Notes under the pieces: generated by a model | Told to the model about the DNA's origin: nothing | Database searches by the model: none | The model's input: the letters and a program-made list of their open reading frames with translations, nothing else | Shown here: piece by piece, positions 31,049 through 39,508 of the stretch | Layout: the number at the start of each line of letters is the position of its first letter | Numbering within the stretch: the first letter of the stretch is position 1 | From: Streptosporangium carneum | Lineage (GTDB): Bacteria; Actinomycetota; Actinomycetes; Streptosporangiales; Streptosporangiaceae | Direction: 5' to 3' | DNA length: 64,000 bases | Assembly: GCF_027922005.1 (NCBI RefSeq) | Contig: NZ_BSEV01000002.1 | Span: forward strand, 310,001 to 374,000 | Translations under genes and position numbers: made by a program

Positions 31049-31070
31049 GCCCGCAGCCTATGGGGAGTGG

Positions 31071-31150
31071 GCTGCGCCAGGCGGGGCGATTCCAGCCCAC
31101 CCGTGAGGCCCGCACTCCGGTGATGCACCCGATGCCCACCCCACCCACTC
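31071..31150 (-). repeat. Dispersed repeat, copy A
   Basis: The minus-strand sequence of about 78 bp aligns with the plus strand at 34086-34163 with roughly 86% identity by eye. The conserved core is GCGGGCCTCACGGGTGGGCT. The two copies are inverted relative to each other and lie in intergenic DNA on either side of the XRE/Nudix genes. Confidence 0.85.
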
Positions 31151-31226
31151 TCGGCCTGTTCCACAGGGATCGGGAAACGCTCCACGAGAAGCGGGAGACC
31201 GATGGCGCGGTTTCCAGCTGGCCGAG

Positions 31227-33923: not shown

Positions 33924-34085
33924 GCCAGGTCGTCCTGTCCTGGCACCGGCTCGCTCCTCCTCGAGCAGAGCGGCTCAGCGGAGACGACGAGGAAGGTGTG
34001 ATCCACGCCCAACAGCCGTCTCACATGGCATGAGACGAATTCAAGAGGTGTGGAGGCGAAGCTCTCGTCGAGTCCCGGCCGGGTG

Positions 34086-34163
34086 TGGTTGGGGCGGGCA
34101 TCGGGCGCACCACCGAAGGGCGGGCCTCACGGGTGGGCTGGAACCGGCCCACCCGGCGCAGCC
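34086..34163 (+). repeat. Dispersed repeat, copy B
   Basis: Inverted partner of 31071-31150; about 11 differences in 78 bp. It directly abuts the unit that holds the AAA ATPase and its arrays. Confidence 0.85.
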
Positions 34164-34247
34164 GATCGCCTTCGACGACTCGCCGCCGTACGGCCAGGCG
34201 GCTGTCGCCTCGGCCCTCTTCCTTGATGTAGATCACAGCAGTCGACC

Positions 34248-34322
34248 GACATTTGACGAGCTGTAGTACCGACAACTTAGAAAGGAAGAAGCGACATTTC
34301 ACGGAAACTTAAACCGACAGGC
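34248..34322 (-). repeat. Left phased array flanking the AAA ATPase
   Basis: The GACA cores start at 34248, 34271, 34293 and 34316, so spacing is 23, 22, 23 bp. Odd units read CCGACATTTGACG or GCGACATTTCACG, even units read CCGACAACTT and CCGACAGGCT. The same alternation and spacing are found on the other side of the ATPase. Orientation is direct; on the ATPase sense strand the unit reads AAATGTCGGTT. Confidence 0.9.
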
Positions 34323-34494
34323 TGTGACCCTGGACATCGGGCACCTGCCGGCCACAGTGGCGCCGGCGTCCCGATCTCGGTCGTGTCCGCCCCAAAGGAT
34401 CGATCCCCTCCGAGGCGGCCGACGTCACCGTCCCGGGGACGGCCGCTCGAACAACCGTCGTGGCGGACACCCGCCGACTGTCACGAATGACCGG

Positions 34495-35748
34495 TCATCT
34501 GTCCCAGAGAGCGCTGATGGGCAACGCTGTCAGCCGGTCTCCGAACGACAGTGATCTCGCACCGGTGTAGAAGACGAACCCGTGGACGAAGTCCTCCCCC
34601 AGACTGTCGCGTAGAGCCACGAGCCCTTTGAAATCGTCCTGGTTGACGGAGTCGGTTGCTTTGGCCTCCACACCGACGACACGCCCGTTGTTGCGTTCGA
34701 GCACAAGGTCCACCTCGGCTCCCTGGCTGATCCTCCAGTGATGAAGCCCGATTCGGAACGGTGCCCATGTGGCCTGTTTCGCGATCTCGTTGACGATGAA
34801 CGACTCGACAAGGGGCCCTCGCGCCGGCGAGATCCGGGCGGCCAGACCGTCGGCGTCGACCCCGATGAGGTGAGTGGCCAAACCGGTGTCGGTAACGTGA
34901 AGCTTGGGCCGGCGGACCGCCCGAGCCACGAGATTCCGAGACCAGGCCGGAACCTGGCGGATCAGGAAGACGGTCTCCAGCAGGCCGAGATAGCGGGTGA
35001 CCGTGGTGCGGTGAAGCTGGAGGTCGCTACCGACCTTGACCAGGTTCGGCTCCTGTGCCGTGCTCGCGGCGGCGATGCCCAGCAGCTGTCGGAGGTTGCT
35101 CGGTTCCTCGATTCTCGCCATCTCCCTGATGTCGGTGTCGATGACCGACTGCACGTAGGCGCGATACCACGAGTCTCTGGTGAGCTCCGATCTCATCGCC
35201 ACGGCCTCCGGATAGAAGCCGCGGCAGATCAGCTCGAAGTAGTCCCGGCGGCCGTGGTCACTGAACGACGGGGACCGCAACGCCTCGGGATCGTTGAAGG
35301 CGGTGACGAGGAAGGAGTCTCCTCTCCCTTCGAGCTCCTCCTGGGCGAAGGGCCAGACTTCCAGGACCCCCGCACGGCCCGCGAGCGACTCACTCAGCGA
35401 CGGCGTGGACAGAAACCTTGTCGATCCGGCCAGGACGAACTGCCCTCGGTCAGTCTTCCGGTCGACTTCCGCCTTGACGGCCAGAACGAGGTTGTCCCCC
35501 CCTCTCTGGATCTCATCGATCATCATCGGACGAGAGTCCTCGGCGACAAAGGCGACGGGGTCGGCCTGGGCGGCCGATCTCAGCGAACCGTCGTCCAGGG
35601 TGAGGTAGGTTCCCCCTCTGCCATGGTTGAGCTGCTGGAGCAGGGTCGTCTTGCCCGACTGCCTGGGACCGTTGACGATCACCACTCTGAAGGCGTCGAG
35701 GAACTCCTCGGCATGCCCGGCCACATGCCGTGAAACCAGTTTCGCCAT
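34495..35748 (-). CDS. AAA ATPase with C-terminal DUF4143 domain
   Basis: 417 residues from ATG at 35748 (GGAGGGGAG upstream). Walker A 'VNGPRQSGKTTLLQQL' (Lys33), Walker B 'SRPMMIDEIQRGGDN', sensor-like 'GQFVLAGSTRFL', a middle winged-helix-like region ('VGSDLQLHRTTVTRYLGLLE'), and a DUF4143 C-terminus with PD-(D/E)xK-like 'GAEVDLVLERNNGRVVGVEA' followed by Lys. This AAA_14/DUF4143 family is widespread, often sporadic, and its function is unknown. Both sides carry phased 22/23-bp arrays, and the upstream array forms an open frame whose stop overlaps this start. Confidence 0.88.
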   Translation of the reverse strand: MAKLVSRHVAGHAEEFLDAFRVVIVNGPRQSGKTTLLQQLNHGRGGTYLTLDDGSLRSAAQADPVAFVAEDSRPMMIDEIQRGGDNLVLAVKAEVDRKTDRGQFVLAGSTRFLSTPSLSESLAGRAGVLEVWPFAQEELEGRGDSFLVTAFNDPEALRSPSFSDHGRRDYFELICRGFYPEAVAMRSELTRDSWYRAYVQSVIDTDIREMARIEEPSNLRQLLGIAAASTAQEPNLVKVGSDLQLHRTTVTRYLGLLETVFLIRQVPAWSRNLVARAVRRPKLHVTDTGLATHLIGVDADGLAARISPARGPLVESFIVNEIAKQATWAPFRIGLHHWRISQGAEVDLVLERNNGRVVGVEAKATDSVNQDDFKGLVALRDSLGEDFVHGFVFYTGARSLSFGDRLTALPISALWDR

Positions 35749-35784
35749 CACGTCTCCCCTCCTGACGCCAACCCTCGATCACCC

Positions 35785-35890
35785 AACCGACATTTGACGA
35801 ACTCTCCAACCGACAGATTACAGAGATCGAGACGACATTTCACGGGATCCTCAACTGACAGATGACTCACCTCCAACCGACATTTGAGAG
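35785..35890 (-). repeat. Right phased array flanking the AAA ATPase
   Basis: The GACA cores start at 35789, 35812, 35834, 35857 and 35879: spacing 23, 22, 23, 22 bp. Units alternate between AACCGACATTTGACGA-like and AACYGACAGATKA-like sequences, a 45-bp double unit. Read on the ATPase strand it is open and encodes a 15-residue repeat, VKCRL-x4-LSV-x3. It lies immediately upstream of the ATPase start and could be an operator, a replication-type iteron set or a leader. Confidence 0.9.
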
Positions 35891-36021
35891 GAGCCGCAGC
35901 ACTCTCACGATGAGACACCACACTGCGTCCTCCCGCGTTCGGCGGCCCCCGAGCCGTACGTGTTCGACGACTCCTCGCAGAAGTCAGGTCGCCGTACGGC
36001 CAGGCGATCGGCGTCCGGCGA

Positions 36022-38813: not shown

Positions 38814-39152
38814 TCACCCGGTACGGCGTCCGCGGGGCATGTCGATCACCATGGACGAGTCGCCGAAATCGGCCACGATCTTGAGCTGACCTCCGAGTGC
38901 CGTCACGTAGGCGGCCAGTGTGGCCACTTCACTGATCGCCCCGCTCTCGATCTGCGAGACACGCGCCTGCGACACGCCCATCGCCTGGGCGACGTCCTCC
39001 TGCCTCAGGCCAAGCTTGTGTCTCGCCTCAGCCAGCTGGTAGGCACGCTGGCGAATCACTAGCTCATCACGGAGCCTGGCGACCTCCTGCTCGTCCTCAG
39101 GCCGAACGAGCTCAGCACGCAGTTCCTCCCACGTCACCGCCTGATCGCTCAT
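38814..39152 (-). CDS. higA: XRE-family antitoxin (HigA-like)
   Basis: 112 residues from ATG at 39152; the start overlaps the toxin stop (TAATG). HTH 'LAEARHKLGLRQEDVAQAMG' and 'VSQARVSQIESGAISEVATL'; C-terminal strands 'AYVTALGGQLKIVADFGDSS'. The toxin-first order and coupling identify a HigBA-like type II module. The antitoxin should neutralise the toxin and repress the operon. The 39509-39669 region upstream of the toxin is AT-rich (TAATAAATTTCTTATG) and is the probable promoter and operator. Confidence 0.85.
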   Translation of the reverse strand: MSDQAVTWEELRAELVRPEDEQEVARLRDELVIRQRAYQLAEARHKLGLRQEDVAQAMGVSQARVSQIESGAISEVATLAAYVTALGGQLKIVADFGDSSMVIDMPRGRRTG

Positions 39153-39508
39153 TACTCCTCCTTGAGGTATCGGGCGAAGCGGGCCTCCGCCGTTTTGATC
39201 GCCACGTCGTACCAACCGTTCCAGTCACTGGATTTGTCTCCGGCGACCAGGAAGACGGCTTGACGCCATGGATCGAAGACGAAGAGGATCCGCACCTCGC
39301 TCCGTCCGCTGGATCCGGGTCTCAACTCCTTGAGATTACGGATGGTCGACCCCTGGAGCGTGTCCACCAGAGGCCGCCCCAGGGCAGGGCCTTCCTCTGC
39401 GACTCGATCCAGAGCGGCGGTGACCTGCAAAAGCGTCTGCCTGTCTGTTTTCCGTAGCTCATGAAGCCAGTCACGCACCTCAGGAACGATCACTATCTGC
39501 CAGTCCAC
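39152..39508 (-). CDS. higB: RelE/HigB-family toxin
   Basis: 118 residues. 'VPEVRDWLHELRKTDRQTLL', 'LQGSTIRNLKELRPGSSGRS', 'VRILFVFDPWRQAVFLVAGD' and 'AEARFARYLKEE' match the phage-derived Gp49/HigB-like group of RelE-fold ribosome-dependent mRNA endonucleases. The basic residues expected on the RNA-binding face are present (Lys, Arg). First gene of the pair with the antitoxin directly after. Toxicity is inferred from family. Confidence 0.85.
   Translation of the reverse strand: MDWQIVIVPEVRDWLHELRKTDRQTLLQVTAALDRVAEEGPALGRPLVDTLQGSTIRNLKELRPGSSGRSEVRILFVFDPWRQAVFLVAGDKSSDWNGWYDVAIKTAEARFARYLKEE

Follow-up and report, generated by a model that had tools for sequence, protein, structure and literature searches.

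The window analysed here is a stretch of 64,000 nucleotides from Streptosporangium carneum (contig NZ_BSEV01000002.1, positions 310,001 to 374,000). It contains a DUF4143 ATPase gene with an array of direct repeats on its promoter side and a second array beyond its 3' end. The features, in coordinates of the window, are:

34495..35748, minus strand: AAA_14/DUF4143 ATPase gene, 417 aa (Pfam, PADLOC, AlphaFold2, fold matches)
35785..35890, minus strand: promoter-side array of five CCGTSAAATGTCGGTT-type sites at 22/23-bp steps (comparison with relatives, chain score)
35785-35800, 35808-35823, 35830-35845, 35853-35868 and 35875-35890, minus strand: the individual sites of the promoter-side array
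34244..34327, minus strand: second array, 3' of the gene, four sites in the same orientation as the promoter array; not conserved
34160..34200, plus strand: left outer match, adjoining a repeat dispersed in the genus; nothing ties it to the arrays
35952..36006, plus strand: right outer match; likewise nothing ties it to the arrays

The ATPase gene is the only DUF4143 gene in the 9.84-Mb S. carneum genome, and an alternative start (GTG at 35751) is possible. Both Pfam domains score above their curated cut-offs (PF13635: 135.3 bits against 28.1; PF13173: 77.1 bits against 27), and the PADLOC model PDC-S01 matches the protein end to end (residues 1-416 of 417, E=3.5e-156). In the available part of the source paper, PDC-S01 is described as an ATPase fused to PD-(D/E)XK, very widespread (9986 genes in Archaea, 29 494 in Bacteria) and among the commonest phage defence candidates, with antiviral validation of most PDCs described as pending (PMC12988326). 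The statement in the original prediction that DUF4143 ATPases have no known role is therefore to be updated: the protein is a predicted antiviral ATPase-nuclease, a candidate defence gene.

The AlphaFold2 model of the ATPase (mean pLDDT 90.4) resembles STAND NTPases, with predicted NTPase, helical and winged-helix domains in the STAND order. Winged-helix domains of STAND proteins often do not bind DNA. The C-terminal part is PD-(D/E)XK-like, and its D...ExK motif (D347, E361, K363) is invariant in 25 sequences. A possible similarity of this part to Card1 came up at E=0.065 in a profile comparison and at E=7e-5 with Foldseek, with TM-scores near 0.2, the domain being searched within a longer query. 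Fold matches include the filament formers AVAST5 (9nc9), EfAvs5 (9jap) and MuB filaments, as well as the maltose-system complex 8bob, and none of the listed matches spans the whole architecture. NCBIfam returned two weak rows only, one of them FnrL at E 0.038 over the winged-helix part, and a PHROGs search with the ATPase gave no match.

The two iteron-like arrays with alternating 22/23-bp phasing described in the original prediction are real, with five TGTC cores in one and four in the other on the strand of the gene. On the plus strand the GACA cores of the right, promoter-side array lie at 35789, 35812, 35834, 35857 and 35879 (steps of 23, 22, 23 and 22), and those of the left, downstream array at 34248, 34271, 34293 and 34316 (23, 22 and 23). 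Read on the minus strand, the sites are AAATGTCGGTT or CTGTCGGTT, and the TGTC cores of the promoter array fall at -134, -112, -89, -67 and -44 from the start codon. Aligned over 76 nt, the two arrays share 75% identity. The promoter array has a chain score of 21.3 (in a null of 291 shuffles the 99% level is 6.0 and the maximum 8.5), and TGTCGGTT occurs 5 times in the 64-kb window against 1.03 expected, a number reached by 0/100 shuffles. Across the whole genome, three TGTC at 22/23-bp steps are found 11 times, 5 of them within the two arrays. The remaining 6 chains are at control level, as the reversed control pattern occurs 5 times in the same genome.

A scan of genome contigs yielded 13 relatives, 11 of which (L013-L023) belong to the actinobacterial genera Nonomuraea, Sphaerimonospora, Streptosporangium, Sphaerisporangium, Planomonospora and Acrocarpospora. 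In all 11, TGTC cores at 22/23-bp steps are located directly 5' of the ATPase start, with a single exact-TGTC pair at such a step near the gene in L014 and L018. The clade consensus CCGTSAAATGTCGGTT was built from 50 sites in 12 loci, and the information between sites is close to zero. Gaps between exact TGTC cores alternate between 22 and 23 bp in 26/26 adjacent gap pairs from 11 loci (the gap list of L016 was split at a 44-bp gap), so the 45-bp double unit (22+23) noticed earlier is close to a rule of the S. carneum clade. With degenerate sites admitted, L017 and L020 have one 22-22 step each.

For a wider survey a family sample of 200 genomes (DUF4143 in 83) and a phylum sample of 246 genomes (DUF4143 in 90) were used, together with 20 plasmid/phage loci and 60 additional stretches. 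Of the 154 resulting loci 123 had a gene model and 97 were non-redundant. The other 31 were dropped for want of a gene model by a Walker A + ExK motif rule, among them L023 and L054, in which repeats are visible by eye. L021 was scored array-free despite having an array, the second DUF4143 gene there probably having been modelled. Start codons of the survey genes were chosen by rule. The two DUF4143 genes of L021 stand tail to tail (112645-113124, plus strand; 113553-114032, minus strand).

A direct-repeat array with a 22/23-bp period scored above the 99% null level in the 220 bp upstream of 65 of the 97 non-redundant genes. The same level was exceeded by 0/97 coding, 1/93 distal and 7/95 downstream control regions, the seven downstream ones scoring 7.0-8.5. 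A score above 8.5, higher than every shuffle and control, was found for 58/97 upstream regions; these 58 arrays have 3 to 7 sites, with 130 gaps of 23 bp and 49 of 22 bp. Similar arrays thus accompany related ATPases, in the close relatives as in the survey, and are not equally common away from them, in agreement with the original prediction. The chain detector was built for 22/23-bp steps and was checked by the lag spectrum and by other step pairs. Lag peaks in the 200 bp upstream are found at 22 (21.6%), 23 (42.3%), 44-46, 67-69, 90 and 92. The same lags reach at most 3.2% in distal upstream, coding and downstream DNA, where other lag peaks go up to 10.3% (lag 51). With detectors set to other step pairs, between 14/15 and 39/40, arrays were found in 0-5 of the 97 regions, barring the pairs which share a true step (21/22: 22/97; 23/24: 48/97).

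The share of genes with an array is 50/56 in the family set (including close relatives), 7/16 in the plasmid/phage set and 8/25 in the phylum set. Of 26 loci on viral contigs, six apparent duplicates and L193, which was short of upstream DNA, were left aside; 8 of the 19 scored have an array, one of the 8 consisting of two sites only. The comparison shows that the upstream direct-repeat array with a 22/23-bp period is a widespread trait of the sampled DUF4143 family, most array loci coming from one actinobacterial family. In a midpoint-rooted FastTree phylogeny of the DUF4143 proteins, a single branch with 69 rows and support 99 contains 62 of the 65 array genes. Genes of the same step class cluster on the tree (0/500 shuffles as low for each of the three array classes), and the mixed-step class contains 11 rows, seven of the S. 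carneum clade and four others. Since 45 bp equal 15 codons, and one frame of the array at the S. carneum locus is open and gives a 15-residue repeat, the array could also be read as a coding repeat of a small peptide. This reading was rejected as practically impossible, because the uniform 22- or 23-bp steps of relatives break the frame.

Array-free genes more often have a palindrome within 80 bp of the start (arm score of at least 9): 12/32, against 2/65 array genes and 2/31 distal controls. The remaining 20/32 array-free genes have no strong palindrome either. Palindromes near the start and no direct repeats were noted in L077, L079, L098, L101, L198 and others from other DUF4143 clades, and some palindromic loci, by eye, apparently have two palindromes ~22 bp apart.

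Pure 23-bp steps occur in 39 loci, and 16 of these have a -10-like hexamer at exactly -12 from the start codon (the next best position has 3, the mean per position is 0.95), suggesting leaderless transcripts. Nineteen loci have the hexamer at -12 or -13, and the last site detected in 13 of them overlaps -35 to -30. As the comparison shows, the start-proximal site covers the core promoter in many loci; a protein bound there would stand in the way of RNA polymerase, which makes repression the first guess. In the S. carneum clade a TAYGCT hexamer is present 13-14 bp past the start of the near-gene TGTC core in 7/14 loci and is absent after the last site at the S. carneum locus itself. Upstream of the genes in L187 and L195, 23-bp steps coincide by eye with -35-like (TTGACT) and -10-like (TATACT) boxes in successive repeats.

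Of the two arrays, it is the promoter-side one that is conserved in the sequences compared. A chain just 3' of the stop codon is absent in L013-L023 (for L018, 36 bp downstream were covered), L023 having one isolated TGTC pair 705 bp from the stop, and none of the other array-bearing loci scanned has sites of its own motif 3' of the gene. Beside the downstream array no convincing ATPase remnant was detected (best tblastn E 0.45). In blastn comparisons of the ATPase gene with the flanks beyond the arrays, a 19-nt match was found on the left (E 0.029) and a 39-nt match on the right (E 6.7e-4), with no excess over 60 random window stretches, of which 5/60 and 56/60 score as high.

Arrays without an intact gene were found elsewhere. 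The pattern TGTCGGTN{15,16}TGTCGGT has 53 occurrences in 35 of the 200 family genomes, against 10 for the reversed control, and chains of at least 3 exact sites exist in seven places. Three of these (G058, G170, G064) have intact ATPases. At two others tblastn detected an ATPase remnant comprising the first 81 residues (G142) and a 44-residue fragment (G141). Behind the G100 chain, some eleven codons resembling the start of an ATPase were recognised by eye and not listed by tblastn, and beside the G047 array nothing recognisable as an ATPase was found. Isolated two-site TGTCGGT pairs outside the loci discussed make up 30 of the 53 matches, against 10 for the reversed control. The loci L235, L236, L237 and L238 have S. 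carneum-type arrays beside broken or absent ATPase genes, perhaps as stages of decay. Arrays can persist after the gene has been lost, and this is the simplest precedent for the downstream array at the S. carneum locus. The best reading of the downstream array is a duplicate of the promoter array that was left behind. This reading rests on the similarity of the two arrays and on the orphan arrays elsewhere.

The proposal that the arrays bracket a small mobile unit was not supported. It would fit the patchy presence of DUF4143 (83/200 family genomes) and the homology among relatives, which mostly starts within the array or gene and ends within ~25 bp of the stop codon, alignable sequence beginning at most ~230 bp upstream. 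However, a downstream array of the gene's own motif exists at the S. carneum locus only, among the array loci scanned, and arrays are not conserved at both ends among copies. There is no transposase or recombinase between the S. carneum arrays, and no empty site was found in 15 other genomes of the genus. In addition, L018 and L022 have common flanks, and the L015 flank is found ~5 kb from the ATPase gene in the L013 genome, so some copies are in old positions. The bracketed element was rejected as very improbable. The unit is promoter plus gene, often in plastic surroundings, and not a clean cassette; by comparison, the array is kept with the gene while the flanks are not.

The original prediction also included a pair of short matches (11 and 17 bp) outside the arrays. 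These exist and may be more than pure chance: 34184-34200 and 35990-36006 are identical at 17/17 bp (E=0.002 within the window), and a longer match, 78% over 27 nt, pairs 34160 with 35952. Their inclusion in an array-ATPase unit was not upheld, as nothing ties them to the arrays. The sole match of 34140-34215 in its own genome is itself. Next to the left outer match, a GC-rich dispersed repeat is present at 34074-34165 and 31070-31156 (87 bp, 86% identical between the copies), and partial copies of the 34074-34165 repeat occur elsewhere in the same genome and in other genomes of the genus.

Repeat motifs were also compared with protein sequences. Different clades have different repeats, for example AAATGTCGGTT and CGGCAGATCCACCA. 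For 82 arrays, close relatives among them, motif similarity correlates with protein identity at rho 0.57, against at most 0.21 in 2000 permutations, a test which ignores relatedness. Motif similarity is 0.22-0.23 at identities under 50% and reaches 0.67 at those over 80%. In 13 pairs of paralogues from the same genome the mean motif similarity is 0.25 (highest 0.47), against 0.22 for unrelated pairs. On present sequences, the repeat tracks the protein clade, not the host genome. Between genomes, the best 16-mer match in the array region increases with protein identity from 11.2 to 14.3 of 16, and changes little over the same range in distal DNA (11.7 to 12.3) or downstream of the gene (11.6 to 12.2). 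This speaks for selection on the sites and against a single host regulator. Shared descent of array and gene explains part of the correlation, and the winged helix covaries with the motif no more strongly than other protein parts (partial 0.145 against 0.19-0.30); for these reasons the correlation does not prove binding by the ATPase.

A separate regulator, such as an XRE protein or a host defence regulator, could occupy the array as an operator instead. An XRE gene adjoins the ATPase region at the S. carneum locus, and separate repressors can control defence genes: RptR, as far as the accessible text goes, represses a defence island by way of three direct repeats (PMC12255303). Yet within the genus the XRE homologues lie far from the ATPase (G447: C1:209338 and C1:8037674; G449: C1:1104249 and C1:3291634), so the neighbouring XRE protein, one of the two binders originally suggested, was rejected as a partner. 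Each ATPase clade has its own repeat and the same-genome paralogues mostly have unlike ones, which makes one shared regulator unlikely and would require many dedicated regulators. Overall we consider a separate regulator unlikely. At 38814-39508 (minus strand) a Gp49-like gene is followed by an HTH/XRE gene, and the two are probably a toxin-antitoxin pair.

The ATPase itself is the best candidate binder, and the phasing suggests the cooperative binding put forward in the original prediction. Our preferred reading, with a probability of roughly 0.6, is that the promoter array is an operator, bound cooperatively by the ATPase, which keeps its own expression low. In this proposal cooperating subunits of the ATPase would line up along the array, one for every 22.5 bp or so (two turns of DNA), and would hold its own expression low until called upon. 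Assembly on DNA may then be a state in which a STAND-type nuclease rests or senses.

The array might also be purely a nucleation or target site, on which a STAND-type ATPase filament forms for sensing, nuclease sequestration or gene maintenance. The predicted fold resembles filament formers (9nc9 AVAST5, 9jap EfAvs5, MuB filaments), the sites are in direct orientation about two helical turns apart, and array and gene are kept together. However, many arrays are in a core-promoter register that a pure target site does not need, and the S. carneum genome has no further chains above chance, which leaves this reading distinctly unlikely. Doubtful, too, is a picture in which a row or filament of a STAND-type ATPase-nuclease, one subunit per 22-23 bp, forms on the array of its own promoter under a clade-specific code between array and protein, the array serving both as a switch and as a parking place for the effector.

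If the ATPase operator reading applies, the widespread array would be a concrete candidate DNA ligand for the DUF4143/PDC-S01 protein, and DNA binding by the protein would lend itself to direct tests. The array promoter would offer an expression handle for finding the trigger of the system, and the clade-specific repeats would be natural specificity variants for how the DUF4143 protein reads DNA. No report of DUF4143 promoter arrays was found in the literature searched, in which subscription journals are thinly covered, and the accessible part of the PDC-S01 paper does not mention promoter repeats (PMC12988326).

Among known systems, a PDC-S01 model matches the S. carneum ATPase end to end. 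The archaeal AAA+/STAND proteins SSO1545 (2fna) and PABY2304 (2qen) differ in that the S. carneum ATPase continues with a nuclease-like domain instead. ParA of plasmid F (type Ia partition) is, according to the portion of the source available, a winged-helix Walker ATPase; it binds cooperatively to its own promoter at hexamers, three of which stand in direct order at 13-bp intervals (PMC8465637). ParA differs in its ATPase family, its 19-bp period, an added inverted motif and the ParB/parS partner system. The repeats bound by RptR, in the portion of that paper available, are direct repeats in a defence-gene promoter and lie over the -10 box (PMC12255303). RptR differs in being a separate small repressor with 9-bp repeats containing a 6-bp palindrome, whereas here the likely binder is the effector. 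MalT and Avs5 share the predicted STAND NTPase fold with the ATPase (8bob, 9jap and 9nc9 matches). MalT, a STAND protein that binds direct-repeat boxes, is an activator of other genes, and Avs5 has SIR2 and sensor parts; for neither did an array at its own promoter come up. ParA, RptR and MalT are parallels, and none is the same thing.
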